A stretch of DNA of 64,000 nucleotides. It comes from Idiomarina sp. (GTDB taxonomy: Bacteria > Pseudomonadota > Gammaproteobacteria > Enterobacterales > Alteromonadaceae). Shown here in pieces: positions 48,434 to 64,000 of the stretch. The notes under the pieces were generated by a model. It was not told the origin of the DNA and ran no database searches. It worked only from the letters and a program-made list of their open reading frames with translations. The first letter of the stretch is position 1, and the number at the start of each line of letters is the position of its first letter. Location of the stretch: positions 1 through 64,000 of the forward strand of contig JAFIFP010000003.1 in the NCBI GenBank assembly GCA_020831965.1. Reading direction: 5' to 3'. A program made the position numbers and the translations under genes.

Positions 48434-48554
48434 GAAATTTCTTAAGGCAAACGAACAGGTGCATAATTGTTGAACAGTTAACGCTCCTCGCTTGTTCCAT
48501 GTATGGGCATCGGCTAGGATGAGTTTGTTAAAGCACTCGTTACCCTGGACTCAC

Positions 48555-50024
48555 ATGAACAATAACTCCAAGCGTGTTTCCTTGGCTGGGTTGAGCGTTT
48601 ATGTTGCGCCTGCTAACCCAGCCGCTCGCCTGCTCGCTCATGAATTTGCTCAGCAAGGAGCCCATGTCCTCGGCTTCATTGACAATTTAAAGTCAGGTGA
48701 GGGTATTGTGAATCACCCCGAAGAACTGTCGACTCATGATTATATTGTGGTCGCAGTCGGTGCTTATCAGCAGGCCATCTGTAAAACTTTGGTACAGCGC
48801 GGCTTCCCTCACCATAACGTCCTCTTAGCAAGTTCCTCTGGCCTAAAGGCCTTTCGCTATGGTTGGACTGAGCGTATCCGAGATCAATTGCATTCAGCCA
48901 GTCTTAAAGTCTTACATTGGCTTGTCTCATGCTTACCCAAAGTAGCACCATGCAAACGCGTGGTGTATTACACCGAAGACTTTATCGACAACAATATTCT
49001 CGTGGCCTGGCAATATCATGTTTCAGTGTCACCTGAATCAGTGCAGCTCGTGACCCGTAATCTTTCACGAGTGTCTGGAGCTTCGGGTTCGGTACTTGAT
49101 GTGGGCTCACTTCGTGGACGCCTAGAACTCATGCGCGCGAAATGCATTGTTCTCGATCATGAATATCAGGGCATGCTGTTTGACGTAGTGCGCGAACATC
49201 GACCCTGCATTCAGCTCTACCACGGCCTACCCTATAAGTTTCTCGCGGGTAATCGGCACTTTAAGCATATTCAGGACGAGGCTTTTGTTTCAAGCTCAGA
49301 TTACTTTAACCAAGCTATTTTTCCTCAGCTGTTTCGGGCTAAGCGGTTCCTCGCTCTTGGTTACCCTCGTAATGATGCGTTTTTGCAAGCAGCAGCGGAA
49401 CGTTGCTGGGCGAATACCCCTGCCACACAGCGACCACAGGATGTGATTAACGCGACGGGAAACCTGTGGGTCTATATGCCAACCTATCGCGACAGTGGCG
49501 AGTTTGTAATGCCCTTCTCGCTCGATGCGATGCAAGCTTTGTGTGAGAGCCATCAGCGTACCTTGCTGCTTAAGTTCCATCCTTTCGTTGCGACAAAGGT
49601 TATCTCAGAGTTTAATCTCACAGCGGCAGAGCATCAGGTCACTCCGCTCCCTCAGCATCCCAATATTTTGCTGTTTCCGACGCGTATGAATGTGTACCCA
49701 TGGTTAGCCGAGGCAGACTTACTTATTACCGATTATTCAAGTGTCGCCTTTGACTTCTTGTTGGCAGACAAACCCATACTGTTTTTTCAATATGACCGTG
49801 ACGCCTATTACGCAAGCCGTGGCGAGTTCACCGTGCCCGCCACAGACTTTGCCGCAGGTCCTGTTGTTGAAGACGAAACAACGCTTTTTCAGGAACTGAC
49901 TCAAATTGCAGACGGCAGCGCCGATACACATAAAGAACAACGGCATCAGCTCATCAGCAAACTTGGTATCCGCAAGGTACTTGCAAGCCCAGCACTCGAA
50001 CAGCTAACGCGAGAGATTACATGA
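48555..50024 (+). CDS. CDP-glycerol:glycerophosphotransferase-like enzyme with N-terminal Rossmann-like domain
   Basis: 489 residues from ATG 48555 (MNNNSKRVSLAG). N-terminus: a Rossmann-like stretch (SVYVAPANPAARLLAHEF, VLGFIDN). C-terminal two-thirds: TagB/TagF-type glycerophosphotransferase with LYHGLPYKFL, YMPTYRDSGEF, LLKFHPF and ITDYSSVAFDFLLADKPILFF. Such enzymes add glycerol phosphate from CDP-glycerol to polymers or sugars; here the acceptor is unknown. Followed, with an ATGA overlap, by the cytidylyltransferase that would supply its substrate. An unusual gene in a Gram-negative. Confidence 0.82.
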   Translation: MNNNSKRVSLAGLSVYVAPANPAARLLAHEFAQQGAHVLGFIDNLKSGEGIVNHPEELSTHDYIVVAVGAYQQAICKTLVQRGFPHHNVLLASSSGLKAFRYGWTERIRDQLHSASLKVLHWLVSCLPKVAPCKRVVYYTEDFIDNNILVAWQYHVSVSPESVQLVTRNLSRVSGASGSVLDVGSLRGRLELMRAKCIVLDHEYQGMLFDVVREHRPCIQLYHGLPYKFLAGNRHFKHIQDEAFVSSSDYFNQAIFPQLFRAKRFLALGYPRNDAFLQAAAERCWANTPATQRPQDVINATGNLWVYMPTYRDSGEFVMPFSLDAMQALCESHQRTLLLKFHPFVATKVISEFNLTAAEHQVTPLPQHPNILLFPTRMNVYPWLAEADLLITDYSSVAFDFLLADKPILFFQYDRDAYYASRGEFTVPATDFAAGPVVEDETTLFQELTQIADGSADTHKEQRHQLISKLGIRKVLASPALEQLTREIT

Positions 50025-50434
50025 AAACAGTCATTACCTACGGCACTTTCGACCTATTTCATATCGGTCATGTGAACCTACTCAAGCGGGCGAAAAGCCT
50101 CGGTGATCGCCTTATTGTGGCCGTATCCACCGATGAATTTAACCAAGGGAAAGGTAAAACGACGCTGGTACCTTATGATCATCGGGTCGCTATTCTTGAA
50201 AGCTGTCGCTACGTAGACCAGGTAATTCCAGAGAGCGATTGGGCACAAAAGCGCACCGACATTGCGAAACACAACGTCGACGTGTTCGTAATTGGTGACG
50301 ATTGGAAAGGCAAGTTCGATGAACTCTCTGACCTATGCGAAGTCGTCTACTTAGAGCGTACGACTGATATCTCATCAACGGCCATGAAGCAGGCGATTCT
50401 GGTGTTCACGCAGCTGCAGAAAGATCTACTTTAG
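50021..50434 (+). CDS. CTP:glycerol-3-phosphate cytidylyltransferase (TagD/GCT family)
   Basis: 137 residues, full family length. MKTVITYGTFDLFHIGHVNLLKRAK carries the HxGH motif (His14, His17) and ERTTDISSTAMK parallels the RTxGISTT signature. It makes CDP-glycerol from sn-glycerol 3-phosphate and CTP for the two CDP-glycerol transferases in the region. Start overlaps the preceding transferase. FAD synthetase-like or other nucleotidyltransferases are less likely given the neighbours. Confidence 0.9.
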   Translation: MKTVITYGTFDLFHIGHVNLLKRAKSLGDRLIVAVSTDEFNQGKGKTTLVPYDHRVAILESCRYVDQVIPESDWAQKRTDIAKHNVDVFVIGDDWKGKFDELSDLCEVVYLERTTDISSTAMKQAILVFTQLQKDLL

Positions 50435-50444
50435 TCTTTCTGCG

Positions 50445-51869
50445 CTACTCTTCGTTATCCATAATCTGAGTAATGAGCTTTGCGACTCGCAAGGAGGACT
50501 CATTGTCTCGGTGCTCATGCACAATGGCGGTGACGCGCTCCCTTTCTTGCGCATATTCACCAGGGTTATCGAGCTGCTGCATAATCACTGTTTGCAAGCT
50601 TTGCTGCTGATAACATTTCGGCCCCGGCGCCCAAAACTCATAGGGCTCAATTAAGAATCCGCGAGTTTCTTTGTACTCTTGCGAATCAGACGGCGTAAAA
50701 ACCATCGGCTTATCTAACAGCAAGTAATCAAAATAAACTGATGAGTAATCCGTAATCAACAAATCTGCAGCTGCGAGCATTTCATAGAAATCAAATTCAT
50801 GCGCCATCAGTGGCTGATCGGTAATCACCCATACGTTTTCCGGTAAATCGTCCTTGTTGCCGAGTCCAAAATCATCCTCATGATAAGGGTGGGGTTTGAC
50901 AACCAGCACTAATTGATTCGTCTCCAGATACTTGAAGAATTCATCTCGATCAAAGTTGGGCAAACCAAACATGCCAAGCTCACCATCGCCATTGACTTGG
51001 CCGTACATCGTTTTTCGAAAAGTAGGCATATACAAAATAACCTGACGACCATTGAGCTTCTTCCCAACGAGCTGTTCCAGCTTCTGCTCCGCCCCTGGTG
51101 CAAATAACAAATCATTCCTTGGCATGCCGGTCACTTGATACTGTTCCGCGTGAATGCCGTAACACGCGTTCATCAAACTCGTATATGTGGCCGAATAAGA
51201 GGTAACTGCGGCGTACTTTAACCAGCGTTGGCGGGTAAGCTCTCGCGTTTCTGGTGGCTGAAAACGACTCATGTAATTGAGCCCTTTCATGGGAAAGCCA
51301 TGCCACAGCTGAATAGACTTCACATCAGAACGCACAGTTTTATCGTGCGTGACAACCACCGCTTCGCTTTTTAAAAGATCTTCGATGTAGGCGTTTGATT
51401 TCACCATATCGTGATGAAACACCGCATTTAGCCCTGAGGACTCAAGCACCTTCATTTTCTTTAGTGCGAGGGTATTTGACCCCGAATTATTGCGAATAAA
51501 GAGTGCCAACCTGCCTTTTTGAATATCTGCAGAACCTTCTAAGTTAAACGTTTGAAAGTCGTCACTCGTGTCATTCTGCTCAAGCTTCGAACGGAATACC
51601 GGCCAATATAACTGGAAATGTTGAATACCGTTTTCGATCAGCTGCTCAATAATTTCCATCTGATACTGCGACGCAATCACAATCGGAACTGCTGCATGAT
51701 TCTTAAGGTAAGTCTCCAGTGACATCACCGGCAAACCGCAAAACTCAGTACCCCACTTGCGAGAATCATTATCGATAAAGCCAATCCATTGCCGCTGAGG
51801 TTCAGCTGCGATCGCAGTTTCTCCTCGCTTAGAGGCGCCAAAAATTATCCAAGATCCATCATTTATCAT
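50445..51869 (-). CDS. Second CDP-glycerol:glycerophosphotransferase-like enzyme with N-terminal Rossmann-like domain
   Basis: 474 residues. N-terminal Rossmann-like part: SWIIFGASKRGETAIAA, WIGFIDNDSRKWG. C-terminal transferase: IQLWHGFPMKGLNYM, VTGMPRNDLLFAP, ILYMPTFRKTMYG, VLVVKPHPYHEDDFG and LLITDYSSVYFDYLLLDKPMVF. Same layout as the gene at 48555-50024 but clearly different sequence, so likely a different acceptor or linkage. Stands on the opposite strand, ten bases from the end of the cytidylyltransferase, downstream of the TPR/sialyltransferase-like gene. Confidence 0.82.
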   Translation of the reverse strand: MINDGSWIIFGASKRGETAIAAEPQRQWIGFIDNDSRKWGTEFCGLPVMSLETYLKNHAAVPIVIASQYQMEIIEQLIENGIQHFQLYWPVFRSKLEQNDTSDDFQTFNLEGSADIQKGRLALFIRNNSGSNTLALKKMKVLESSGLNAVFHHDMVKSNAYIEDLLKSEAVVVTHDKTVRSDVKSIQLWHGFPMKGLNYMSRFQPPETRELTRQRWLKYAAVTSYSATYTSLMNACYGIHAEQYQVTGMPRNDLLFAPGAEQKLEQLVGKKLNGRQVILYMPTFRKTMYGQVNGDGELGMFGLPNFDRDEFFKYLETNQLVLVVKPHPYHEDDFGLGNKDDLPENVWVITDQPLMAHEFDFYEMLAAADLLITDYSSVYFDYLLLDKPMVFTPSDSQEYKETRGFLIEPYEFWAPGPKCYQQQSLQTVIMQQLDNPGEYAQERERVTAIVHEHRDNESSLRVAKLITQIMDNEE

Positions 51870-51887
51870 GCAATCTTCCTTTTGGAA

Positions 51888-53717
51888 TTAGTGTTCACCG
51901 TGCGGTGTCCTCAAGCTTGCTTGCACACGCTTTTCAACGCGCGCTAAAAAATCTGATTCCGACAGTGCGAGAATATTAGCCAAGGGTTCATCCACCTGAA
52001 CCGCCCCGCTCGTTTCCAGCACTTTTAATCGCCGATAAGCCTCCAGCACATCATGTTTAATATAGGCTTCTCGCGGATCCACCCTTTGTGTGAAGTAGCC
52101 TTCTAAATGGGGCTGTTCACCAAGAAAAAAGTCCATGTTGAAAAGCTTAATCCGCCCCGCTGAAGTCAAAAGGATATCAAAGAGTATATGGCTCACCGCA
52201 AAGCTTAACCCTGTTACCGCAGAAGGCTCAGCAAAGAACTGTACGCGACTCTTGATATTCGAGCTGACGCAACGGAACAATCTTTGATCGGCAACATTCC
52301 TCAAAACCAGAATGTCGATAGGGGCTTCGCGAGCGCCACTAACAAACTTGGCTGGATTACTTCGCAAATTACCAATGTTGTAATATGACACATGAGTCAG
52401 CGAGCCAAGCTGCTCTTTCCTCTCGTCTAGCCAATTTTGACCGCTGAAATTGGGACGAACAACAATATCGAACTCATCGATCTCTACTCCCGACTTTTCA
52501 CCCGTTGCTGCAGGTCCAACGATAGCGACCGATTTACCGTCAAAGTAATTCAAATAATCTTGATAGCCAGACTCTTGCAGCCACGAGGGGTTTGTCATTT
52601 TTTGAAACGCTCTAGCCTCAACAAGCTTACTCTGCCGTTGCAGCGCATCGAGCGTAATGGCGATCAATCGATCCCTCTGGTGCTTCTCCATCGAACTCGA
52701 GTCGAGAATGACATTTTTAAGTACTTCACTGACAACTGCACATTGATTACCTTGTAACCCCATGAAGGCCCAGTGCTCATAAGCTGATAAGGGGTCTTGT
52801 GCCTTCCAAAAATGTTGGGTTGCGAAATGCTTCAAAGCATAAGCGTCGACGACTAGGCCCTGGCCAATCAAACGGCCATAAACATATAACCAAGCCCGCC
52901 AATCATCCGCAGACAAACTAATTGTCTGCTCTCCGTAAGTAAGTTCATAAACAAATGATTGCAACTTTTCTGTCAATATCTGCTCTCGCCCTTCACGTAC
53001 CATTAGCCTCGGAGACCAGTCGACATTTGCGCTCGCCTCCCATGCTAATCTTGCTGATGGCTCGCGCTCCAGTAGCACTTGAGCTCGGCTTAAATCGCCA
53101 ATAGCTAAACTATGATTGAGTAAGCACCCTAGCCAGTAATCTTTGTCATTATCGATCGTGATGAGTAAATCTAAGCAGTGGCGAAAATCAGCTTCCCAAG
53201 GAGTACCTTGTAACTCAGTTTTGGAAAATGAACTGGTGAGGTATTGAAGATTACGATACCAACAGCGAGCAGCTCCAACATCTCTGGGCTTTCGATGAAG
53301 AGCTCCTTTCGCATAGCGTACGGCCTGTTCAAACGAAAGCAATGACTCTGCAGTGTAAGCTGCACGCAAAAACCAGTTGCTTACAGGGTTCTCCGACGAG
53401 GAAATGGCTTGCTCATAAAGTTGTAGGGCACGATCCAAGAGAGCAAGTTGCTCGGAGGCAAATCCGGCACGAAAAAAAGCTTCTGGTCTATACGTCACAT
53501 ATTGGTTTACCGAGGAGAAGAACTTGTACGCATCACACCATTGTTCGGTAACATGGCAACACATGCCTAGTTCAAACCTAATATTCGCAACAAGCGGCCC
53601 ACGGCGAATTGATGGAATTAGTGTCACCAACAACAATGCAAATCTCAGCACCGCAGTATAAGCAACTGACCACCGATACTTTCTGTGAGCAAAATATGTG
53701 CGAAAACCAGATCTCAT
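51888..53717 (-). CDS. TPR-containing protein with C-terminal sialyltransferase-like domain
   Basis: 609 residues. ATG 53717 is preceded by GAGG at six bases. N-terminal about 395 residues are helical TPR-like repeats (for example EQLALLDRALQLYEQAI) with a hydrophobic stretch near residues 20-35. About residues 396-430 read SVAIVGPAATGEKSGVEIDEF then DIVVRPN, the pattern of the donor-binding L-motif of GT29-type sialyltransferases (VVGNxxx...G..ID..D.ViRxN). With pse genes nearby, a pseudaminic acid or other nonulosonic acid transferase is a reasonable guess. No close family is certain. Confidence 0.55.
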   Translation of the reverse strand: MRSGFRTYFAHRKYRWSVAYTAVLRFALLLVTLIPSIRRGPLVANIRFELGMCCHVTEQWCDAYKFFSSVNQYVTYRPEAFFRAGFASEQLALLDRALQLYEQAISSSENPVSNWFLRAAYTAESLLSFEQAVRYAKGALHRKPRDVGAARCWYRNLQYLTSSFSKTELQGTPWEADFRHCLDLLITIDNDKDYWLGCLLNHSLAIGDLSRAQVLLEREPSARLAWEASANVDWSPRLMVREGREQILTEKLQSFVYELTYGEQTISLSADDWRAWLYVYGRLIGQGLVVDAYALKHFATQHFWKAQDPLSAYEHWAFMGLQGNQCAVVSEVLKNVILDSSSMEKHQRDRLIAITLDALQRQSKLVEARAFQKMTNPSWLQESGYQDYLNYFDGKSVAIVGPAATGEKSGVEIDEFDIVVRPNFSGQNWLDERKEQLGSLTHVSYYNIGNLRSNPAKFVSGAREAPIDILVLRNVADQRLFRCVSSNIKSRVQFFAEPSAVTGLSFAVSHILFDILLTSAGRIKLFNMDFFLGEQPHLEGYFTQRVDPREAYIKHDVLEAYRRLKVLETSGAVQVDEPLANILALSESDFLARVEKRVQASLRTPHGEH

Positions 53718-53739
53718 CAATCGCCTCAACACTGACTGT

Positions 53740-54720
53740 TCAATTCGAAGTTAATCGTCGCACCTGCCCAAAGAAATCTTGTGTCGTAGCGGTAAGCTCT
53801 TCAATGTAACTGTCAATTTGGGTAACCTCGCGCTCAGTGAAAGGAGGTATATCTTCCAACCTTAAAGTATCGAGATTCTCTGGCGAGATACACCGATCGC
53901 TATTCCCAAACACTTCCGTGAGTAACCGAGAAATTTTAGGCGTATTGGACTCGACAGCGACAAAAGGTGTCCGTGCCAACAAACATAGAGTGACACAATG
54001 ATAGCGGCCGGTAACCACGCGCTGAATCCTCGCTAGGTAAGCTAGCATTGAGAATCCGGGGTTCGAGTCAAATAGCTGCTGAAAATCGACTAAATCATTC
54101 GTTTCACTGCGAATTTGATTCGGAAGCAGCCCCTTGTGAGTAAGATTCATATATCTTAAGTTCAAACGTTTTGCAGTTTCCAACAAAGAACGCTTCACGT
54201 CACCAATCACACTATCAGTCACTAATCCAGGAATATAGCGTTCGAAATTCGTGTCACTGTGCCAATCAGTAGTCAGTGTCAAATCCCCAGTAACCACTGG
54301 CGTAAAATGACCGGACTTAATGTAAGACTGACTCTGGCTATCGCGAACAGAGCATAGGTTAAACTTTTGAATTAGCTCAATTTCCTGGTTCCTAAGCGCA
54401 TAGAGTGTTGAATTAAGCAATACAACCGGCACTCCCCATTGCTCCCGAGTGAAGGTAGACAGCATCGGCAAAAATTGAGCTCGAGGACGAGATTCCGAGT
54501 GATGAATACTTCCCTCACCATTTACAATCACCAGATCGGGTTTCTGACGTGCAGCGATAGTTGCACGATACTCCCTCCAATCCTCTGCAACTGGCCACGT
54601 CCAAATAATCTCCCCACCTATACCCTCAACAAAATGACGAATTTGGTGCATGACTAAGTCACAACCAAAATGCAGAGAAGGTGAAGTGTCATTAAAAATA
54701 GCCACAGAGAAACGTTTCAT
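53740..54720 (-). CDS. Polysaccharide pyruvyl transferase family protein
   Basis: 326 residues. VIVNGEGSIHHSESRPR and ARIQRVVTGRYHCVTLCLLARTPFVAVESNTPKI are the hallmark segments of PF04230-type pyruvyltransferases (ketal pyruvate from PEP onto sugars). Upstream 288 bases contain no gene; the next gene downstream (TPR/sialyltransferase-like) begins 22 bases after its stop. First gene of a three-gene minus-strand set ending at 50445. Confidence 0.82.
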   Translation of the reverse strand: MKRFSVAIFNDTSPSLHFGCDLVMHQIRHFVEGIGGEIIWTWPVAEDWREYRATIAARQKPDLVIVNGEGSIHHSESRPRAQFLPMLSTFTREQWGVPVVLLNSTLYALRNQEIELIQKFNLCSVRDSQSQSYIKSGHFTPVVTGDLTLTTDWHSDTNFERYIPGLVTDSVIGDVKRSLLETAKRLNLRYMNLTHKGLLPNQIRSETNDLVDFQQLFDSNPGFSMLAYLARIQRVVTGRYHCVTLCLLARTPFVAVESNTPKISRLLTEVFGNSDRCISPENLDTLRLEDIPPFTEREVTQIDSYIEELTATTQDFFGQVRRLTSN

Positions 54721-55460: not shown

Positions 55461-56447
55461 TTAGCTTCCTCTATATCTCGCTTCGACTTGCGCAACTACC
55501 TCATCGAAACGTTCATTAGGTAGTCCTGTAATACCACCCGCACCGGCACGACCGCCGCCACCCGGAAATTGACTGCAGAGTTCGCCTGCACCTTCATTAT
55601 TTGTTCTGGGAGCTCTCAAGCTCACTAACAGTTCACCTACTTGCCATGGAGTGGCTACGAGCACCGCCTTGTTTGGCTGTTGCTCCATGAGCTGATTTGC
55701 AATAGTGCCACTAATACGCCGAGCCCAATCTGCATCTGGCAATAAAAGCACTATGAGCGACTCATTCTCAAGATAGGGAATTTCATTCTGCGCACGTTGG
55801 ATATCCGCATTGAATTGCTCTCGCAGCTTCACTACGGAAGCGTTCTGAGCCGCAATTAACTCGAATGGGTCTTCAAAGTTTATAAGCTGCGCAAAAAGTG
55901 CCGTTGGAGGAATCATCAAGTCAGCTAAGTTGCGGCCATAGCCATTGTAATTCAGCAAGGTCCCTAGCTCGCATAACTCTGCCCGTTGCGCATGTGCTAG
56001 ACCAAGCTCATCAGCTTCTGCATTTGCCTGAGCCATAAGGCCATCACCGAAGAGAGCAGCAATAGCCCAACAATGAAGCGCCTTGTTGCCCCCTGCAAAC
56101 TCTCGAAAAACAAGAAGCGCAGTGCAGCAGTTAGCAGATTCATCAATGACGGTCGTTAACTTCGGATGAGGAAGCGCATGCCTTGCTTGATGATGATCGC
56201 AGCACAGTACTTCAACGCCTTTTGCAAGCAAGCGGTCAATCGCTTTTGCATTCGCATCATAGGACAAATCAAGAACAGTGACTTTATCGCCGGGCTCTGC
56301 CTGCACACGCTCAACGAGTTGAATATGACGCTTAACATCACTAATGAGGGTGTGCTGTTCTGCGCCCACCGGATAAACTCTGCGTAAAATAACCAAAGCC
56401 AAAATACCATCGGCGTCACCATTGAACACGTCGATGTAGCGCGACAT
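55461..56447 (-). CDS. DHH-family phosphoesterase
   Basis: 328 residues. DHH domain: VFNGDADGILALVIL (Asp11, Asp13), VTVLDLSYD (Asp60), LCCDHHQARH (Asp84, His85, His86), then a DHHA1-like C-terminus with FPGGGGRAGAGGI. Related enzymes hydrolyse nanoRNA, pAp, cyclic dinucleotide breakdown products or sugar-linked phosphates. ATG overlaps the stop of the luxC-like gene (TAATG), so it is translated as part of the Pse/acyl operon; it is the last gene. Function in this setting unknown. Confidence 0.8.
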   Translation of the reverse strand: MSRYIDVFNGDADGILALVILRRVYPVGAEQHTLISDVKRHIQLVERVQAEPGDKVTVLDLSYDANAKAIDRLLAKGVEVLCCDHHQARHALPHPKLTTVIDESANCCTALLVFREFAGGNKALHCWAIAALFGDGLMAQANAEADELGLAHAQRAELCELGTLLNYNGYGRNLADLMIPPTALFAQLINFEDPFELIAAQNASVVKLREQFNADIQRAQNEIPYLENESLIVLLLPDADWARRISGTIANQLMEQQPNKAVLVATPWQVGELLVSLRAPRTNNEGAGELCSQFPGGGGRAGAGGITGLPNERFDEVVAQVEARYRGS

Positions 56448-57613
56448 TACCAGCGACTCTCGCGTGAGAATGCACGAACCAGGTCAACGCCATCCCACAA
56501 CGTATCGAACTCAAGCGCTTGGCCTACCGGCACCACCCGGTCAATGCCGCAGAGTTGGTTTTTCGCCCAGTCTTGCACGTTCTCCACGCCGAAATAACTC
56601 AAGGTTTGGTGAGCGCTCACTAACTGATGACTCAGCTCATCTACGTGTTGCACCGACATTTGCACAAACAGCCCACAACCTTGGTGGCCATCAATAAAAA
56701 ATGGTGATAGCGAGTCCGTCTGTGCCACAGAAAACTGACCAAAGCGCTGAATGTCTGACACCGCGCTGGCCATCGCGAGATTTTGTTGATTGTTCACCGA
56801 CCGGTACTGCTCACTCTCCGTCATTTGTAGCTGCGTTGCCGAAGGTAATTCCACATAAGCAGCTAACGCTTGCCAAAATTGGGTGGCCGCCGTGTGAATA
56901 GCTTCACTATTGCCTTGCCACACCACTAACTTTGCAGAAGAGCAGGCCTGCTGAGCGAAGGTAAGATTGTCTCGCGCAAAGCCTTCCACAAGCTTGTGTA
57001 GTGCATCATTGTTCGCCTGAAGCAGGGCCTCTGCCCCTAAAACACAAAACGACAGCTTGTGAGCAAAGGTTAACTCGCGGGCATGTGCTGGCATCGGTAC
57101 TTGCCGTAATGCTTGGATACCTTCGTTCGAGCCCCACAGTACGCGAGCATCAATCCTTGCCTGCAATTCTTTGAGTTCTGGAGCATCACGCTCACAGCGA
57201 ATCAACTGGAAACGGGCAGCGACAGTCGGAAAGTCAGCACTAAGCTCCCGAATCATATTGCACAACAACTGTGCACTACCGCCCATGCGGGTAGACAATC
57301 GAATTGTATTACGATTACCACAAAGCAAACTCAACATGCCAGAATAGACGAATAGGCTGTCCACATTACCCGGTGCGGCATGAAAAATATGCCCTATGGG
57401 ACGCAATGCCAATGCATGGTAAGGCTGCAAAATCTGCTCAATATGGGATTTGCGTAGCCAAAAACCGAGCGCAACTAAGTCAGGGTAATCACGGCTCGCA
57501 GGGTCACTCAAGAGTCGCTTAGAGAGAGTTTGAGTAAACGCCAAGGCGGCTGCGTCAGCGAAAGGCGCCAAGGTCGGCTCAGCTGTTACGGGATTGACGA
57601 CTGTCCAACTCAT
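56447..57613 (-). CDS. LuxC-like acyl-CoA/acyl-protein reductase
   Basis: 388 residues, shorter than classical LuxC (about 480). LuxC family pattern: GHIFHAAPGNVDSLFVYSGML (nucleotide/substrate region), RNTIRLSTRMG, VLWGSNEGI and FAQQACSSAKLVV with Cys224 as the aldehyde-dehydrogenase-type catalytic residue. LuxC accepts an acyl group from LuxE, passes it through Cys and reduces it with NADPH to an aldehyde. ATGA overlap with luxE and TAATG with the DHH gene. No luciferase genes are near. Confidence 0.8.
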   Translation of the reverse strand: MSWTVVNPVTAEPTLAPFADAAALAFTQTLSKRLLSDPASRDYPDLVALGFWLRKSHIEQILQPYHALALRPIGHIFHAAPGNVDSLFVYSGMLSLLCGNRNTIRLSTRMGGSAQLLCNMIRELSADFPTVAARFQLIRCERDAPELKELQARIDARVLWGSNEGIQALRQVPMPAHARELTFAHKLSFCVLGAEALLQANNDALHKLVEGFARDNLTFAQQACSSAKLVVWQGNSEAIHTAATQFWQALAAYVELPSATQLQMTESEQYRSVNNQQNLAMASAVSDIQRFGQFSVAQTDSLSPFFIDGHQGCGLFVQMSVQHVDELSHQLVSAHQTLSYFGVENVQDWAKNQLCGIDRVVPVGQALEFDTLWDGVDLVRAFSRESRW

Positions 57614-58692
57614 TGGCTTCCCCCTGCATTCTCAAAGGTATCGCTGCACCCGCGAGCTTCAACCTTTGCCATACGCCCTAGCGCCTCAAAGTACTTCCCT
57701 GTACGACCACAAGGGCAATCATCCTCGCCCAGAATTCGCCCCCGATCTTCGGTTAGCAAACTATGTCCTGGGTAGCTAGTCGGAAGTACTGAAAGTACTT
57801 GCAGTACTCCGGCCTGCTGATGCGGCAGTACCCGCCAACTGCCCGGCTCACGCACTAAGATATCCGCATATGACGGACAATGAAGATGGCCATGTTCGCA
57901 CGCTACAAAGATAGAGCCGACTTGTTCTACCATGCCATAAAAGTTGTGCACGCTAAGGTTGCCGAGTTGGTTTCTTGCCGTTTCATTGAATATCCTTGCG
58001 CTGACTGCTTCAGCCTCGAGCTTTTTCCAACCCCCACTGTGCAATAACACCGCGTCTTCGAACGGCAAGTGAATCTCTTGCGCCTGCAATGCTTGTAAAC
58101 CATAGCGCCACACCATAAAGGTAAAGCCAAACATAAAGACGGGCGTCCCCGCAAAACGCTTGTGAAACGTGCGAATGGCCTCAAGGTTCAAGGTCATATC
58201 GTCATGGAGCGCGTAGGTGTGATGTCGGCCCAAAAATGAAAGGCCTTGGATCCCCGCGCCGCGCGCAGAAAATGATGCTCGATTCTGAATCACGCTCGGA
58301 TGATCCCAAATCAACATGGGACGTCGCTGTTTGCCAAGCCACTCCTGCATGATTCGAACTAACACTTGGCTTTGGCGTTTGGCTGTGTCGTTATCGAGAA
58401 AGATACGCGAAGGCACACTACCGGTGGTGCCAGAAGAGGTCAAAACTTTAAAAACTGCGTCATCGGGAATGCTGCGCAATTCACGTTGCTTAAATAAAGG
58501 CACCGTGAGCCAGGGTAGCTGGGCTAAGTCGTTCGCGTCACTCGACTCCCACTGGCCCTCTGCGGAAAGCACTCGCGCATAAGCTGGGCAAGCCTGCCGA
58601 TGATGCTCGGTCAAAGCCTTCAGCTCATGCAATAAACGAGGAGCCTTCTCATTATGTGACAAACCATAGGGTGGTTGTTCAATAAGATTCAT
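57610..58692 (-). CDS. LuxE-like acyl-protein synthetase
   Basis: 360 residues of the LuxE/adenylate-forming family. VLTSSGTTGSVPSRIFLD is the ATP loop; GFTFMVWRYGLQ, YGMVEQVGSIFVACEHGHLH and EDDCPCGRTGKYFEALGR follow. LuxE activates a fatty acid as acyl-AMP and hands it to LuxC. GAGAGG precedes the ATG. It begins nine bases after the ligase gene ends. Confidence 0.82.
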   Translation of the reverse strand: MNLIEQPPYGLSHNEKAPRLLHELKALTEHHRQACPAYARVLSAEGQWESSDANDLAQLPWLTVPLFKQRELRSIPDDAVFKVLTSSGTTGSVPSRIFLDNDTAKRQSQVLVRIMQEWLGKQRRPMLIWDHPSVIQNRASFSARGAGIQGLSFLGRHHTYALHDDMTLNLEAIRTFHKRFAGTPVFMFGFTFMVWRYGLQALQAQEIHLPFEDAVLLHSGGWKKLEAEAVSARIFNETARNQLGNLSVHNFYGMVEQVGSIFVACEHGHLHCPSYADILVREPGSWRVLPHQQAGVLQVLSVLPTSYPGHSLLTEDRGRILGEDDCPCGRTGKYFEALGRMAKVEARGCSDTFENAGGSQ

Positions 58693-58701
58693 AGGCCTCT
58701 C

Positions 58702-60132
58702 TCAGTCCTTCTCACTATTCAAGCACAGCGTAAGCAAACGAGGATAATCAATTTTACCGCTACTCAAACGCGGTATTGCTGGCACTGCGACAAGCGACCA
58801 TAGCGAATGGTGAATGCCTAAATCCTTTGTCATCAATTGCATCACCTTGGCGTCGGTGCTCTGCTCTGGACTGACGACAACGAACAGCTTGTCATCGATG
58901 CCACAGCAATAGGCGGGCTGAATCCCACATTCATCAAGCAGCTGCTCAAGATGATCGAGCTGAAGGCGTTTACCACGAACCTTCAAAAACCGAGACATTC
59001 GACCCGTGATACGCAGCCAACCGTCAGTTGTCCAATGCGCGAGATCACCCGTTGCTAGCTCCGTCAGACAAGGCCCCTGCTGCTGCCAATCTGCGGCGCA
59101 TTGCGCGTAGCCTAGCATAATGTTGTCGCCCAAATAACAAAGCTCTCCATCTACGTTTGGCTCAGTAATCTCTTCTCTTGATTCAGGGTCGCGAACGATA
59201 AAGCGACCACCGGGAATCGCACGGCCAATAATATCTGGATTATCACGAATCGCTTCTGGCGGCACAAATGCCATGCGAGCCGTTGCTTCAGTTTGTCCGT
59301 ACATCACGTACAACTGCCACCCTTTAGCGGCGCAAAGCGCACTAAAGTGCTTTACCTGAGCCGCCTCAAGCCTACCTCCGGCCTGCGTTAGATAACGCAG
59401 TGCAGGCAGTTCCATCCGCTCCAAACGTAGCATTCGTAACATCTGATAATGGAACGGCACCCCAGACAACGAGGTGACCCCCTGTGCTTTCACCAAATCC
59501 CAAAAGCCTCGCTCCATCATGCCTAAATTGGTCAAAACAATTTTCGCGCCCGCCGCAAGATGGGTATTTAACACAGATAAACCAAAACTATAATGCAACG
59601 GTAAGCTGGTAATCGCTGTATCGCGTTCGCTGATGGGCAAGTACGCGAGGATCGCCTGCGCATTCGCTTCGAGGTTATTACGAGACAACATTACAGCCTT
59701 GGGACTACCGCTACTGCCCGAGGTACTCATAAGTACCGCCAGATCAGCACGAGCCGCTTGCGTATGTGAAGGACGCAATCGCGCAAGCTCAGATCCCGCT
59801 GTTGTCAGAGTCACACCCAACGCTCGCCACATACTGTCTCGCAATGTATCAGGCTGGTCTGGATCACTTAAAAGTAAAGGAAGTCCTACACGAACACATG
59901 CCAAATAGTCGACGATAGCGTCGACAGATGTTTCAAAACACAGTCCTAATACTTCACGACGCACATCAACGCCGGCTAACTGTTCTGTCACCGCCAACAT
60001 ACGGCTCTGAATCAGTGTTTCTAACTCGCGATAAGTAATTGACTCTTGGTCAGTGCAAAAAGCGACACCTTCGAACTTAGATAGATCGCTAAAAATAGTA
60101 ACTTTTCGACGATTTTCAGCACTTAATGTCAT
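58702..60132 (-). CDS. AMP-dependent acyl ligase (ANL family)
   Basis: 476 residues. LMSTSGSSGSPKAVMLSRNN is the ANL A3 loop; LSGVPFHYQML, YGQTEATARMAF (A5), TGDLAHWTTDGWLRITGR (A7) and VKGKRLQ-like VRGKRL (A8) with the C-terminal Lys in SSGKIDYP. Acyl-AMP/acyl-CoA/ACP ligase activity is expected; its partner may be the acyl carrier protein just upstream, whose stop overlaps this start by 17 bases. Confidence 0.85.
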   Translation of the reverse strand: MTLSAENRRKVTIFSDLSKFEGVAFCTDQESITYRELETLIQSRMLAVTEQLAGVDVRREVLGLCFETSVDAIVDYLACVRVGLPLLLSDPDQPDTLRDSMWRALGVTLTTAGSELARLRPSHTQAARADLAVLMSTSGSSGSPKAVMLSRNNLEANAQAILAYLPISERDTAITSLPLHYSFGLSVLNTHLAAGAKIVLTNLGMMERGFWDLVKAQGVTSLSGVPFHYQMLRMLRLERMELPALRYLTQAGGRLEAAQVKHFSALCAAKGWQLYVMYGQTEATARMAFVPPEAIRDNPDIIGRAIPGGRFIVRDPESREEITEPNVDGELCYLGDNIMLGYAQCAADWQQQGPCLTELATGDLAHWTTDGWLRITGRMSRFLKVRGKRLQLDHLEQLLDECGIQPAYCCGIDDKLFVVVSPEQSTDAKVMQLMTKDLGIHHSLWSLVAVPAIPRLSSGKIDYPRLLTLCLNSEKD

Positions 60133-60352
60133 ACTTTCTCAAAATTTCACGAGCCTTAGCCACAGAGCTCATGTCAATGATGTCATCCGTGTCCAGCATG
60201 ACATCAAAAACATCCTCGAGCTCAGCAATAAGCACCATATGTGCCGTTGAATCCCACTCTTTTATCGAACCATAAGCTAAGTGCTCAGTAATATCCGACT
60301 CAGGAAGTCCTAATGACTTCGCAAATGCCGCGGTAACTTGATCTGTGGCCAT
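60116..60352 (-). CDS. Acyl carrier protein
   Basis: 78 residues, acidic, four-helix carrier layout. KEWDSTAHMVLIAELEDVF holds the phosphopantetheine attachment Ser35. Not AcpP: it differs from the housekeeping DSLD-type motif and sits in a dedicated operon. ATG 60352 is supported by GGAAG upstream; GTG 60358 would add two residues. Confidence 0.85.
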   Translation of the reverse strand: MATDQVTAAFAKSLGLPESDITEHLAYGSIKEWDSTAHMVLIAELEDVFDVMLDTDDIIDMSSVAKAREILRKYDIKC

Positions 60353-60395
60353 GGACACTCTTCCTTTTCCTAATTCAGACTAACAATGCCATTAT

Positions 60396-61145
60396 TTAAA
60401 TAAGCATTCCGCCATCGACACCCAACACCTGTCCGGTGACATAGCTACTCAAATCGCTCGCCAGAAACAATGCCGCATTCGCAATGTCTTTCGGTTCGCC
60501 AATCCGGCCCATACCGATGGACTGGAGCCTTGCTTGATACTTCTCTTCAGGGAGCTTGCGCGTCATATCCGTGTCGATAAATCCCGGAGCAATAGCATTC
60601 ACACGAATATTCTGTGCTGCTAGCTCTTTTGCCAGCGACTGAGTCACTCCGATCACTGCCGCTTTACTGCCACCATAAACAGCCTGCCCCACATTACCAA
60701 CCCGGCCAATAATGGAAGAAACGTTGACGATACTCCCTCCACCGTTACGCTGCATAAGTCTGGCTGCATATTGGCAGCAATAAATCACACCGAAGGTGTT
60801 GGTTGCAAAGGTTTGCTCAACTTGCTGAGGGGACACCATGCCTATTAATGCGTCGTCTAACACGCCTGCATTGTTAATGAGTACATCAAGTCGCTTCGTT
60901 AATTTAAATAGTGCCTGAAAACCTTGCTTGACCGAATCTGCATCGCTCACATCGAAAACGCAAGCGTGCGCGCTAACGCCATAGTCATCGTGCAGCTGCG
61001 AGCAGAGCTCTGCAAGCTCATCCGCACGTCGGCCATTCAGGTACAATGTTGCGCCTGCAGCCGCGAAACGTTCAGCCATTGCTCGGCCAATACCGCGACT
61101 CGCGCCGGTGATTAGTACATGTTTGTCGGTCAAGTTCAGATCCAT
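60396..61145 (-). CDS. SDR oxidoreductase, FabG-like
   Basis: 249 residues. LITGASRGIG (NADP loop), NNAGV, Ser144, Tyr157 and Lys161 (YGGSK) make a complete catalytic set, and the end TGQVLGVDGGMLI is FabG-like. Possibly reduces a 3-oxoacyl-ACP on the operon's own carrier protein, or a sugar. ATG 61145 was used; a GTG nine bases upstream is in frame. Eleven bases follow pseH. Confidence 0.9.
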   Translation of the reverse strand: MDLNLTDKHVLITGASRGIGRAMAERFAAAGATLYLNGRRADELAELCSQLHDDYGVSAHACVFDVSDADSVKQGFQALFKLTKRLDVLINNAGVLDDALIGMVSPQQVEQTFATNTFGVIYCCQYAARLMQRNGGGSIVNVSSIIGRVGNVGQAVYGGSKAAVIGVTQSLAKELAAQNIRVNAIAPGFIDTDMTRKLPEEKYQARLQSIGMGRIGEPKDIANAALFLASDLSSYVTGQVLGVDGGMLI

Positions 61146-61156
61146 GATCAGCACTC

Positions 61157-61693
61157 TTAATAGCGAATAAAGCGCGCGAGCGGAGCTCGTGCAGCCACAT
61201 AATCGTCGTAGTTCAACTCATAGAACAATAGATTATCGTCTCGACCTGTGTAGCGATAACCACATTTCTCATGAAACCGTTTCGAGGCATCGTTGTCTTC
61301 AAAAATCTTGCCCTTCAAACAGGACAGCTGAAGTTCTTCGAAGGCTACATCATTGAGCGCAAAAGCCACACAAAAAGGGACGATGTTGTTCCGATATTGT
61401 TCAGGATAAATATACATGCCTGGCTCAACCGTGCCCGCATCATGATGAATCGCAGTGAGTGACGCAACACCAATGGGCTCATCTTTAAACCAGGCCACCC
61501 AATAGGCACGCGTCTGATCCCCCTGTAGTCCCGCAAACCACTTCAGCTGCATTTCATGGGTAATATGCGTCTGGTCCAACATATGCTGGGCAATATCTGA
61601 TGAATTCCGCCATTGTCGTACACGCTCTAAATCGTCTTTCGACAAAGGCTTTAGCCTAATACCGTAACGCTGAAAGGCTGGAGGCCAATTCAT
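61157..61693 (-). CDS. pseH: UDP-4-amino-4,6-dideoxy-AltNAc N4-acetyltransferase PseH-like
   Basis: 178-residue GNAT protein. IRLKPLSKDDLERVRQWRNS start, IGVASLTAIHHDAGTVEPGMYI, LNDVAFEELQLSCLKGKIFEDNDASKRFHEKCGY. In the Pse pathway PseH makes UDP-2,4-diacetamido-2,4,6-trideoxy-L-altropyranose (acetyl transfer). ATGA-coupled to pseI. With acyl-transfer machinery nearby, the acyl donor might be other than acetyl-CoA; that cannot be told. Confidence 0.85.
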   Translation of the reverse strand: MNWPPAFQRYGIRLKPLSKDDLERVRQWRNSSDIAQHMLDQTHITHEMQLKWFAGLQGDQTRAYWVAWFKDEPIGVASLTAIHHDAGTVEPGMYIYPEQYRNNIVPFCVAFALNDVAFEELQLSCLKGKIFEDNDASKRFHEKCGYRYTGRDDNLLFYELNYDDYVAARAPLARFIRY

Positions 61694-62730
61694 ATCAGGT
61701 CCCAGCTTAGCGGAGTGCCCTTTTTCGCATCCCGCTTAATTGTCTTGCCCAAGAAGTGACTCAGATACTTTGGTGCCAACCCCAAACCAGGTCGCACGGA
61801 ACGTAAATTCGCTTCGGTAAACCGCTCTCCCGCCTTCATATCGAGAGCCACATAAAGTGAACGCCGGTGTACACGAGAAGCCACTTCTTTCTCGGTACAG
61901 CCATAATGAACACGGCCTAATGCGTCTTTCGCGCGTCGGCACTCATCGACCAAGGCCTTAAATTCATTGGGTTCCATCGAGAAGTCTGCGTCCACGCCAC
62001 CTTCAGAACGGTCGAGAACAAAGTGTTTCTCAATCACGGACGCCCCCATGGCAACGGCAGCTACAGACACACCTATACCCGTTGTATGATCAGACAACCC
62101 TACTTCACACTGAAACAACTCACGTAAATGTGGAATGGTCCGTAGGTTTGCGTCGCGCGGACGAGCCGGATATTGGCTTGTGCATTTCAATAAAACGAAG
62201 TCCTCACAACCATTTGCCCTCAGTACTTCAACCGTTTCTGCCAACTCTGCTTGGGAAGCCATACCAGTTGAGACAATCACGGGTTTACCCGTTTGCGCCA
62301 CGCGCGCAATTAAGCCGTGATCGATATTCTCGAACGAGGCGATTTTGTAGCACGGCACATCGAGGTCTTCGAGGTAATCCACCGCAGATAAGTCAAATGG
62401 CGAGCTAAAGGCAATCATTCCTAACTGGCGTGCGCGATCGAAAATTGGTTTATGCCATTCCCAAGGCGTCATGGCCTTTTGGTACAACTGATGAAGTGAA
62501 TAGCCATGCCAAAGACTCTCAGGATTGTCGATATAAAACTCGCCCTCATGCACATCGAGAGTAATGGTATCTGCCGTATATGTTTGCAGCTTCAGCGCGT
62601 CAGCGCCCGTCGCAGCGGCCGCATCCACCATCGCCAAGGCTTTGTCCAAGGACTGGTCATGATTTCCTGACAGTTCTGCGATAATAAACGGCGCTTGGTC
62701 TGCACCAATACGTTTGTCACCAATCTTCAT
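61690..62730 (-). CDS. pseI: Pseudaminic acid synthase PseI
   Basis: 346 residues, NeuB family: condenses PEP with 6-deoxy-AltdiNAc to pseudaminic acid. FIIAELSGNHDQSLDKALAMVDAA, TGADALKLQTYTADTIT, YKIASFENIDHGLIARVAQTGKPVIVSTGMA, HFVLDRSEGGVDADFSMEP, and a C-terminal SAF (antifreeze-like) domain. The LSGNH-type start is that of PseI rather than NeuB. ATGA overlaps on both sides. Confidence 0.93.
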   Translation of the reverse strand: MKIGDKRIGADQAPFIIAELSGNHDQSLDKALAMVDAAAATGADALKLQTYTADTITLDVHEGEFYIDNPESLWHGYSLHQLYQKAMTPWEWHKPIFDRARQLGMIAFSSPFDLSAVDYLEDLDVPCYKIASFENIDHGLIARVAQTGKPVIVSTGMASQAELAETVEVLRANGCEDFVLLKCTSQYPARPRDANLRTIPHLRELFQCEVGLSDHTTGIGVSVAAVAMGASVIEKHFVLDRSEGGVDADFSMEPNEFKALVDECRRAKDALGRVHYGCTEKEVASRVHRRSLYVALDMKAGERFTEANLRSVRPGLGLAPKYLSHFLGKTIKRDAKKGTPLSWDLI

Positions 62731-63821
62731 TTCGCGATCTCCTGTCCTGTTGCTAGCCTAGCCATGATCACATCCACCACACGTGCTAATCCTTGTCCAT
62801 CTACCAAGGATAACGCAGCTTGGGACATTTGTTCGAGTCGTTTAGGTTCATTTGCCAGCACAGTAACGACCTGCGGTAACTCAGTAGCGATCTGGTGACG
62901 TTGCATGGCGATTGCCGCACCTGTCTCTGCAAGCCCCCGAATCGCCGTTTTCTGGTTGTCCGCAAGCTCAATTGCGACAGTTGGCAACCCTAGACAACAA
63001 CGTTCCCAGGAAGTTGTTCCCGCGCCGCCGATAGCTAAATCTGCGACTACCATATACTCATGCATATTGGTCACGTTACGTACTACCGAAACGTCTAACT
63101 GCAAGCGCCCAAGCAGGTCTTCGAGCTCAGCTTGGTATGCATAACCAGCACCAAGGACTACAGTCACCTGAATCCTGTTGGTCAGTGTTGTGCTAGCTAG
63201 GGCTTCTAAAACGGTTGCCGTAACATTATCTGGATCAACGCCGCCCATACTCACAAGCAAACGACGTAACTCGCGCCTGGTCATCACGCTTTTCCGTGCT
63301 CTAGCATATATCGGCTTCAGTAGGGAGAAGTTCACTCCAGTGAGTAGAGCGGCCTCGTCAGCGACTAAACCGGAGTAATCGGCGGGCGTTCTACCTAAGT
63401 TCTGATCAAGCAGAATGGCGCTTTTATGCTCGCGATCAGCCAAGTCATCAATCACCATTACCTGCTGACATGTTCCGTGAAGTTGGCTTTCCCATGCGCG
63501 ATCCAGCGCGTAATGGTCAACGACTATGAGATCCCAAGGGTCATCACCAAGAAGCGTAAGACACTCTTGCGCATCGAGTGTTTGAGTTGTTCCTAACCAA
63601 TCGCGGTGGGCAAGCGTGCCAGAGGGCGGCGCACTGCTGCGTAGAGTTTGCCATGGCAAGTGTTCACGTTCGAGTACGGCGACGGAATCTCCACGTTGAG
63701 GTCGTGTAAGAAAAAGAATCTCTGCTCCCTGCTCCTTCAGAGCTTGCGCCAGTGTGACACATCGCATGATGTGACCACTGCCCATACGATGACCTGAATC
63801 AACACGAAACGCTATTCTCAT
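62727..63821 (-). CDS. pseG: UDP-2,4-diacetamido-2,4,6-trideoxy-beta-L-altropyranose hydrolase PseG
   Basis: 364 residues from ATG 63821, which overlaps the pseF stop as ATGA (an earlier ATG-like frame to 63878 lies inside pseF). GT-B-like: IAFRVDSGHRMGSGHIMRC and DLAIGGAGTTSWERCCLGLPTVAIELADNQ. Removes UDP to release 6-deoxy-AltdiNAc for PseI. Confidence 0.92.
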   Translation of the reverse strand: MRIAFRVDSGHRMGSGHIMRCVTLAQALKEQGAEILFLTRPQRGDSVAVLEREHLPWQTLRSSAPPSGTLAHRDWLGTTQTLDAQECLTLLGDDPWDLIVVDHYALDRAWESQLHGTCQQVMVIDDLADREHKSAILLDQNLGRTPADYSGLVADEAALLTGVNFSLLKPIYARARKSVMTRRELRRLLVSMGGVDPDNVTATVLEALASTTLTNRIQVTVVLGAGYAYQAELEDLLGRLQLDVSVVRNVTNMHEYMVVADLAIGGAGTTSWERCCLGLPTVAIELADNQKTAIRGLAETGAAIAMQRHQIATELPQVVTVLANEPKRLEQMSQAALSLVDGQGLARVVDVIMARLATGQEIAK

Positions 63822-64000
63822 TCGCAACGCGTTCCCGACTGTTGCAACGCCAAGTACATCAACTCTGCGCGATCCCAATCCTCAGGCGTATCGATATCCT
63901 GTACGCGATGGCGTGGCAATAGAAATGGGATTGATGTCGTCTGGAATACACCGACCTTTTCTAACCACGCTCGGGTTTTGCCCCAGTAAAACTGTCCCGC
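63818..64000 (-). CDS. pseF: Pseudaminic acid cytidylyltransferase PseF, C-terminal part (cut by window end)
   Basis: The last 60 residues of a minus-strand gene that continues past the window edge. Reading AGQFYWGKTRAWLEK, then PFLLPRHRVQDIDTPEDW, then RAELMYLAL. The R-x-Q-DIDTPEDW segment is the C-terminal signature of CMP-sugar synthetases of the NeuA/PseF type. Makes CMP-Pse5Ac7Ac for transfer. Its stop overlaps pseG. pseB and pseC are expected beyond the window. Confidence 0.88.
   Translation of the reverse strand, partial: AGQFYWGKTRAWLEKVGVFQTTSIPFLLPRHRVQDIDTPEDWDRAELMYLALQQSGTRCE

Follow-up and report, generated by a model that had tools for sequence, protein, structure and literature searches.

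A LuxE/LuxC gene cassette adjoining pseudaminic acid genes in Idiomarina sp. and its probable role in short hydroxyacyl supply

What do relatives of the luxE and luxC genes do within an operon for pseudaminic acid (Pse)? The question is raised by a 64,000-nucleotide stretch of Idiomarina sp. DNA (assembly GCA_020831965.1, contig JAFIFP010000003.1, positions 1 to 64,000), which is referred to below as the window. Ten genes lie on its minus strand between 55461 and 64000 and are transcribed in the order pseF-pseG-pseI-pseH-SDR-ACP-ligase-LuxE-LuxC-DHH (SDR, short-chain dehydrogenase/reductase; ACP, acyl carrier protein). Our analysis indicates that the five genes from SDR to LuxC, called here the cassette, probably constitute a tetronate-type supply of a short hydroxyacyl group to the Pse pathway, the acyl being placed on N7 of the sugar by PseH. 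Three agreeing lines lead to this reading: gene roles and order resembling those of tetronate synthesis, loss of a CoA-binding glycine from PseH with retention of Asn131, and the arithmetic of a flagellin sugar mass of 376.14 Da. The ten genes, with profile scores and family cut-offs, are as follows.

63818..64000, minus strand: pseF (CMP-pseudaminic acid synthetase), 3′ part; TIGR03584, 333 bits (cut-off 205.7), scored on L003:1821-2525
62727..63821, minus strand: pseG (UDP-sugar hydrolase); TIGR03590, 288 bits (cut-off 153.6), scored on the frame from 63833
61690..62730, minus strand: pseI (pseudaminic acid synthase, NeuB family); TIGR03586, 505 bits (cut-off 340)
61157..61693, minus strand: pseH-type GNAT acyltransferase without the CoA-pyrophosphate glycine; TIGR03585, 93.8 bits (cut-off 93.1), loop comparison, AlphaFold2 and Foldseek
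60396..61154, minus strand: SDR reductase, FabG-like; PF13561, 231 bits (cut-off 27)
60116..60358, minus strand: acyl carrier protein with a WDS attachment site; PF00550, 20.6 bits (cut-off 20.8), E 5.5e-4
58702..60132, minus strand: ANL acid ligase (476 aa); PF00501 AMP-binding, 145 bits (cut-off 29.9)
57610..58692, minus strand: LuxE-like acyl-protein synthetase; PF04443, 146 bits (cut-off 24.9); its profile finds the solved LuxE 7xc6_E
56447..57613, minus strand: LuxC-like acyl reductase; PF05893, 102 bits (cut-off 21)
55461..56447, minus strand: DHH/DHHA1 phosphoesterase; DHH 30 bits (cut-off 28.1), DHHA1 33 bits (cut-off 25.9)

The window edge truncates pseF, which extends to about 64525 outside it. 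We placed the start of pseG at the ATG of position 63821; in the table of open reading frames (ORFs) the first start is a TTG at 63878. With the ATG start, the nine junctions lie between an overlap of 17 bases and a gap of 37. Overlaps are found at PseF/PseG, PseG/PseI, PseI/PseH and LuxE/LuxC (4 bases each), ACP/ligase (17) and LuxC/DHH (1); gaps are found at PseH/SDR (2 bases with a GTG start, 14 with an ATG), SDR/ACP (37) and ligase/LuxE (9). The preliminary description of this DNA had read pseF to DHH as a tight one-strand run with nine close junctions, and the coordinates and profile matches bear this out.

Some of the gene identities need qualification. PseH passes its equivalog cut-off only marginally, and the ACP is weak by Pfam, but its W35-D36-S37 motif is well conserved (at least 95% of 106 aligned rows). 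Cys349 of LuxE is invariant among 13 rows and, in the larger alignment, conserved to a similar degree (at least 95% of 106 rows), as is Cys224 of LuxC (at least 95% of 98 rows). The best NCBIfam match of the SDR is a 3-oxoacyl-ACP reductase (261 bits, under the cut-off of 298). For the ligase, the best 25 of 90 NCBIfam matches are all under cut-off and include AmcH, a 2-oxoglutaryl-ACP ligase; its best PDB relatives are adenylation domains of nonribosomal peptide synthetases, followed by oxalate- and malonyl-CoA ligases among others. A substrate marker was sought in the ligase and not found, and its relatives merely hint at small acids.

The operon is not one for light production, because LuxC and LuxE score far under their NCBIfam cut-offs (32 of 750 and 35 of 550 bits) and the genome, 97.8% complete, has 0 matches to the luciferase family PF00296 (a control profile matched in 10/14). 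The absence of luxA and luxB, noticed earlier within the window, thus extends to the genome as assembled.

The next evidence comes from PseH. In the Helicobacter pylori enzyme the main chain of Gly103 binds the CoA pyrophosphate, and the reaction takes place on the 4-amino group of a UDP-sugar (PMC4363471). We compared two sets of sequences. The reference set consisted of 20 PseH proteins over the family cut-off from LuxE-free genomes (23 pass; G000, the genome of the window, G253 and G127 have LuxE and were excluded). The cassette-linked set had 61 rows, made up of 59 ORFs within 400 bases of an ACP or ligase gene, the window PseH and that of G253. Five same-locus pairs and one partial row are among them, and PseH ORFs located further from the ACP, or with an SDR between, stand outside the count; three of these excluded ORFs (L080, L081 and L106) show the window-type loop. 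The Gly103 position is occupied by Gly in 20/20 LuxE-free PseH, and by Ala in 49, Pro in 6, Ser in 4 and Gly in 2 of the cassette-linked rows, so that 59/61 lack the glycine. The window PseH has Pro here and so lacks the residue of the canonical glycine contact with the CoA pyrophosphate. The pantetheine-binding Asn131, on the other hand, is Asn in all sequences of both sets (20/20 and 61/61). At the position of Tyr138, the proposed general acid, cassette-linked rows have Asn (52), His (8) or Asp (1), and LuxE-free PseH have His (10), Tyr (5), Arg (3) or Gln (2). Lys133 of H. pylori PseH was tried as a second marker and dropped, being conserved in neither set.

Loss of the pyrophosphate glycine with retention of the pantetheine asparagine is what would be expected of an enzyme using a carrier-protein (acyl-ACP) donor; as far as sequence goes, cassette-linked PseH suits such a donor. 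The change may have been a single event, since the 56 non-Bacillota cassette rows form one clade (support 100/99). An AlphaFold2 model of the window PseH has the GNAT fold (mean pLDDT 94.9). Among the best 50 rows of a Foldseek search of the PDB, PseH itself (4ri1) was first by E-value, and the highest query TM-score, 0.85, belonged to the sugar N-(3-hydroxybutanoyl)transferase FdhC at rank 13.

The third line of evidence is a mass. In the flagellin glycosylation island of Aeromonas piscicola AH-3 the five ORFs downstream of pseH are the cassette, and the sugar linking the glycan to flagellin is a Pse derivative of 376.14 Da, which stays at 376 on deletion of fgi-1 (PMC7874193). The computed mass of Pse5Ac7Ac is 316.127; with C4H6O3 in place of one of the acetyls, on the mono-N-acetyl Pse residue, it becomes 376.148. 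When all C, H, N and O increments to the mono-N-acetyl core were scanned within 0.015 Da, C4H6O3 was the one plausible solution; the four others were all odd-electron or nearly hydrogen-free. This formula corresponds to dihydroxybutyryl or O-methylglyceryl, and the operon has no methyltransferase for O-methylglyceryl. Other Aeromonas strains give different values: A. caviae Sch3 has plain Pse5Ac7Ac, m/z 317.1 (PMC9290775), and A. hydrophila AH-1 a 403 Da sugar (PMC4691044). Both are counted among the single-sugar strains (PMC7874193) and are compared here by sugar mass and strain class alone.

The mass bears directly on an explanation invited by the names LuxE, LuxC, ACP and FabG, namely that fatty acids are reduced to long-chain aldehydes or alcohols, which become the lipid part of a flagellin glycan. 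A "liposugar" component was suggested by the Aeromonas authors (PMC7874193), and a section heading of PMC4875605 contains the word "lipoylation". We consider this explanation very improbable: the linking sugar of AH-3 has space for about C4H6O3, the other units of the AH-3 glycan are given as hexoses, N-acetylhexosamine (HexNAc), phosphate, methyl and a 102 Da unit (PMC7874193), and the cassette is also found in amino-sugar loci without pse genes. The preliminary description had proposed an acyl or aldehyde-derived group on the Pse glycan or made along with it, for example an N-acyl variant or a lipid anchor. The evidence favours the former. The lipid anchor is not supported, as the AH-3 sugar, the one measured linking sugar found for a cassette-bearing strain, leaves a space of about C4.

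The 102 Da unit, which terminates the AH-3 chain and is unexplained (PMC7874193, PMC4284686), shares its nominal mass with C4H6O3. Its position at the far end of the chain could mean that PseH still makes Pse5Ac7Ac while the cassette serves a different sugar or a different position, and cassettes in loci with other amino sugars would agree with this. Such a separate target appears improbable, as it is the linking sugar itself that is 376, unchanged by fgi-1 deletion (PMC7874193). Moreover, PseH adjoins the cassette and has the changed donor loop, and G000 holds a single PseH match at E 1e-10.

How could the cassette provide a group of this size? According to the hydroxyacyl reading, the ligase would load a short acid onto the dedicated ACP, malate or another C4 dicarboxylate being the likeliest. 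LuxE proteins are acylated on their C-terminal cysteine, and the LuxE of the cassette would accept the acyl group there and pass it to LuxC. LuxC would convert the thioester to an aldehyde and the SDR would reduce the aldehyde to a primary alcohol, yielding a hydroxylated butyrate, which in the case of malate would be 2,4-dihydroxybutyrate. One of the two activating enzymes would then reload the hydroxyacid onto the ACP. PseH would place the hydroxyacyl on the 4-amino nitrogen of UDP-4-amino-4,6-dideoxy-AltNAc, the later N7 of Pse, in place of the usual acetyl. Finally, PseG, PseI and PseF would produce CMP-Pse5Ac7(hydroxyacyl), to be attached to flagellin by Maf proteins.

A precedent for this chemistry is the perosamine of Vibrio cholerae O1, which bears a 3-deoxy-L-glycero-tetronyl (2,4-dihydroxybutyryl) group; VC0248-VC0252 are assigned to its synthesis (PMC3441752), and RfbN has a LuxE domain (PMC4772473). 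The order ACP, ligase, iron-containing alcohol dehydrogenase (Fe-ADH) and LuxE/LuxC fusion, beside NeuB- and NeuD-type genes, was found in five genomes (L065 and L204-L207), so the tetronate-type set is also present in nonulosonic acid loci. L204-L207 represent 4/227 genomes of one genus, and the Pfam Fe-ADH and the LegC, NeuC, NeuB and NeuD families were checked for L065. The match between the window and the tetronate type is a likeness of roles and order, not close kinship. Kinship of LuxE was accordingly not used as proof of a tetronate function, since the tree keeps tetronate-type LuxE outside the cassette group. Among the matches listed (40 of 273), a literature search for work that connects dihydroxybutyrate or tetronyl groups with pseudaminic or legionaminic acid and LuxE turned up none by title or opening of the abstract, a weak negative that leaves subscription journals uncovered. 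PMC7371886 gave no match for cassette terms.

To see how constant the cassette is, its neighbourhoods were collected. LuxE of the window matches in 36/295 genomes of the order, a few of the matches being distant. In a named genome collection 592 stretches match it, of which the best 80 were kept. The annotated loci number 115 (35, L034-L068, and 80, L080-L159); being the nearest LuxE relatives, they give a biased share of pse loci. Removal of 8 duplicates left 107 distinct loci, and exclusion of 13 in which LuxE was flanked by under 4 kb on one side left 94. Genes were labelled with 14 BLAST query proteins, which is a rough procedure, and only a few proteins were also searched against Pfam. 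ACP, ligase, LuxE and LuxC occur together in 89/94 loci, 77 of these with an SDR in the stretch, which means that the set is not assembled by chance. PseI and PseG are present in 57/94 loci, and in 56/94 PseH lies within 120 bases of the ACP, SDR or ligase. All seven Aeromonas loci (L097, L098, L100, L104, L108, L110 and L136) have the order PseH-ACP-SDR-ligase-LuxE-LuxC.

In the remaining 37/94 loci the stretch does not hold PseI plus PseG. Of these loci, 20 carry a label for an aminotransferase, dTDP-sugar isomerase, NeuC, hexapeptide acyltransferase or PseC, and 6 have transketolase, ketosynthase or GNAT labels only. The cassette lies beside other amino-sugar genes in L045, L092 and L128 by Pfam and in L130 and L148 by labels. 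Random occurrence of the lux-like genes away from pse had been named at the outset as grounds for abandoning a link between the two. Occurrence away from pse is literally what these 37 loci display. With another amino-sugar gene labelled in 20 of them, however, the cassette has the look of a supplier of acyl groups in general and not of a neighbour met by chance. Natural fusions were also seen: ligase-LuxE of 877 aa (L054:9838-12471) and LuxE-LuxC of 773 aa (L059:13598-15919) and 825 aa (L065:7773-10250). They fit a hand-over of the acyl group between these enzymes.

The same loci help to assess another use of the SDR. As the SDR is closest to 3-oxoacyl-ACP reductases, it could make 3-hydroxybutyryl-ACP in the ordinary way for transfer by PseH, LuxE and LuxC having some other task. 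The structural nearness of FdhC, a 3-hydroxybutanoyl transferase, to PseH would agree with this, as would the N-3-hydroxybutyryl sugars known in marine bacterial polysaccharides (PMC3210612). We nevertheless give it little credence: profile searches found no ketosynthase among the operon genes, 4/57 pse loci have LuxE and LuxC with no SDR label, the opposite of what would be needed, and 274.12 + 86.04 = 360.15, not 376.14.

A number of observations weigh against tetronate-type supply of the hydroxyacyl group. We infer every enzymatic step of the cassette, and the pathway in V. cholerae is itself said to be putative, going by the title of Morona 1995. Identity between the window LuxE and the tetronate type is 32%, with tetronate-type LuxE on its own long branch in the tree, and the alcohol-forming enzyme differs, being an Fe-ADH in the tetronate type and an SDR here. 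The SDR is missing from 4 (counting any labelled ORF) to 6 of the 57 pse loci. No amino-sugar or chain-building label was found in 11/37 non-pse loci, although three of these (L047, L048 and L144) still have an adjacent PseH. Two cassette-linked PseH rows (L036 and L155) retain the glycine, and FdhC was solved with CoA, so a hydroxyacyl-transferring GNAT need not use an ACP, which tempers the carrier-protein argument. The mass of 376.14 Da is given to two decimals only and is 8 mDa under the formula value. With S or P allowed four more increments fit, of which C4H6OS (376.130) is conceivable, and O-methylglyceryl, two hydroxypropionyls, or formyl plus C5H8O3 share the total formula.

Lastly, the PseH loop is of the RHPML kind in 7/9 distinct Aeromonadaceae loci vs RNNIVPF in the window. 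Because of this difference the acyl group of the window organism may not be that of AH-3; it may be another of the same kind. The difference between the loops of the window and most Aeromonas would also agree with a 4-hydroxybutyryl or other omega-hydroxyacyl group here, made by the same pathway from succinate or another acid, instead of dihydroxybutyryl, and a 4-hydroxybutyramido sugar is known from Pseudoalteromonas (PMC3210612). We take this to be unlikely, the AH-3 mass, the sole one at hand, fitting a dihydroxy acid.

Where would the sugar be used? The window is on contig C12, which ends at 67532, and PseB and PseC are encoded on contig C3, scoring 554 and 541 bits (L160), both over cut-off. 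PseB, C, F, G, H and I are therefore complete in the genome, each over its family cut-off, and the PseH of the cassette is the only PseH match at E <=1e-10. Near PseC (C3:333340) are Maf genes (C3:335634 and 337381) and five flagellin PF00669 matches (C3:342703-348719); a sixth PF00669 match is on contig C9. Maf and flagellin genes are thus linked to pseBC and not to the window cassette. Since pseBC, Maf and flagellin genes adjoin on C3 and the single PseH lies in the cassette, flagellin is the likely target of the sugar, though the cassette is unlinked to the flagellin genes. Elsewhere, L051:5418-9035 encodes a Maf-type flagellin glycosyltransferase (1205 aa) between ligase and LuxE, a direct link between a cassette and flagellin glycosylation.

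Not every gene of the operon appears to belong to this pathway. DHH begins on the last base of the luxC stop codon, sharing that one base with it (TAATG), and had initially been included in the functional set of the operon. DHH matches at E 1e-30 occur in 13/38 relatives, and LuxE at E 1e-10 in 4/17 genus members. Apart from G000, three genus members have LuxE, and in two of them no DHH match reaches E 1e-30. The third, G509, is the only genus member besides G000 to carry both, and has them on one contig about 11 kb and 2542 kb along it (C1:11021 and C1:2542415). DHH was rejected as a cassette member, being unlinked to LuxE in all three relatives. A small counterweight is that the DHH profile matched 1/115 annotated loci, namely L065, where a partial ORF lies some 9 kb away from LuxE. 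On balance, DHH is probably a bystander, which may be merely co-expressed with the cassette. Downstream of it is an ORF of 145 aa on the opposite strand, without a family match.

Other neighbours were also noted. Directly upstream of pseF, at L003:2627-4252 (about 64627-66252 in window numbering), is a methyl-accepting chemotaxis-like protein, judged by eye from the translation. Near the cassette, the window at 48492-54720 encodes two CDP-glycerol glycerophosphotransferase-like proteins (PF04464), a cytidylyltransferase-like protein (PF01467) and a polysaccharide pyruvyl transferase (PF04230), perhaps to decorate a surface glycan with glycerol phosphate or pyruvate.

A broader generalization can be put forward tentatively, and we hold it to be possible rather than probable. 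LuxE/LuxC cassettes may be a widespread, interchangeable assembly line that provides amino sugars, nonulosonic acids included, with hydroxyacyl groups in bacteria ranging from the Gammaproteobacteria to Bacillota and spirochaetes, with PseH converted from acetyl-CoA to acyl-ACP. The simple form would give C4 acyl groups. In other forms, transketolase- or acetolactate-type thiamine pyrophosphate (TPP) enzymes and an extra NeuB would lengthen the aldehyde before its reduction, which would explain why some other flagellin sugars carry larger substituents free of nitrogen. Ketosynthase III and split transketolase genes were found in L116 (Pfam) and in L131, L143, L145 and L146 (labels). By label, transketolase-type genes, some with ketosynthase III, also occur in L055, L118, L149 and L158, and the group spans Pseudomonadota, Bacillota and Spirochaetota. 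L208 (Pfam) has an acetolactate-synthase-type TPP enzyme and a second NeuB, sometimes accompanied in such loci by a FabA-like dehydratase; TPP enzymes are in L063 and L147 and FabA in L209. NeuB inside an acyl-chain pathway would suggest condensation of phosphoenolpyruvate with the LuxC aldehyde. An ORF of about 591-601 aa with an adjacent NeuB-like synthase was seen in L208, L209, L063, L117, L133, L147, L152 and L156 and resembles Shewanella sfmA/sfmB. In Shewanella, sfmA is a NeuB-domain protein and sfmB a TPP enzyme, and the sugar carries nitrogen-free C9H16O7, C10H18O7 or C11H20O7 (236, 250 and 264 Da) on a 274 Da core (PMC3765264). These units fit C8H14O7 (C4H6O3 plus two C2H4O2) with one to three methyls; other chain/methyl splits fit too. 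A 450 Da sugar of Treponema denticola with a methoxy-trihydroxyhexanoyl group, on which a literature search brought up no paper, would fit the series.

If tetronate-type supply to Pse is correct, a gene set that was read as fatty acid synthesis (PMC7874193, PMC4875605) acquires a chemical meaning and the unexplained 376 Da flagellin sugar a testable structure. A likely acyl-ACP-dependent branch would be added to the Pse pathway, and the acyl group of a nonulosonic acid would become predictable from genome sequence.

How does the operon compare with known systems? LuxC and LuxE of bioluminescence belong to the same Pfam families, whereas the window has a dedicated ACP and ligase and its genome no luciferase family. 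The sfmABCDE operon of Shewanella oneidensis was considered as the same gene set and rejected. It serves a 274 Da mono-N-acetyl nonulosonic acid with a nitrogen-free 236-264 Da substituent and includes an SDR gene, but the set described consists of NeuB, TPP enzyme, methyltransferase and ATP-grasp genes with no LuxE or LuxC (PMC3765264).

In V. cholerae O1, VC0248-VC0252 are RfbK, RfbL, an Fe-ADH, RfbN and an acetyltransferase, with roles compared here by description and not by sequence. Shared with the window are the carrier protein, the ANL ligase (WbeL of 471 aa vs 476), an alcohol dehydrogenase, the LuxE/LuxC reductase and a sugar-amine acyltransferase (PMC3441752, PMC4772473, PMC12208996, PMC9201469). 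The five tetronate-type roles are thus present in one operon by family, the SDR being assumed to be the dehydrogenase. The window differs in having an SDR for the Fe-ADH, unfused LuxE and LuxC, the GNAT PseH as acyltransferase and Pse for perosamine; Fe-ADH and fused LuxE-LuxC are present in L065 and L204-L207.

Neighbourhoods of Pse, LuxC and LuxE genes in flagellin glycosylation islands, which the preliminary description had mentioned, are in print (PMC7874193, PMC4875605). In enterobacterial islands Acp, LuxE, LuxC, CaiC and FabG each occur in 71 to 80 strains (PMC4875605); these are likened to the cassette by gene kinds. The Aeromonas group II island has orf1-3, luxE and luxC beside pseFGHI, the same five cassette genes as the window, and its authors took them as fatty acid synthesis (PMC7874193). 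The window agrees in that an ACP, a 3-oxoacyl-ACP-reductase-like SDR, an AMP-dependent synthetase, luxE and luxC adjoin the pse genes. It differs in the order pseH-SDR-ACP vs pseH-ACP-SDR, in having DHH after luxC where Aeromonas has the fgi-1 glycosyltransferase, and in the distance of the cassette from flagellin genes. In the Aeromonas island flagellin is the target, as is likely here, and in both cases pseBC lie apart from the rest (PMC7874193). Overall, the window holds a known gene set, the one described for the Aeromonas group II flagellin glycosylation island, which recurs in enterobacterial islands.

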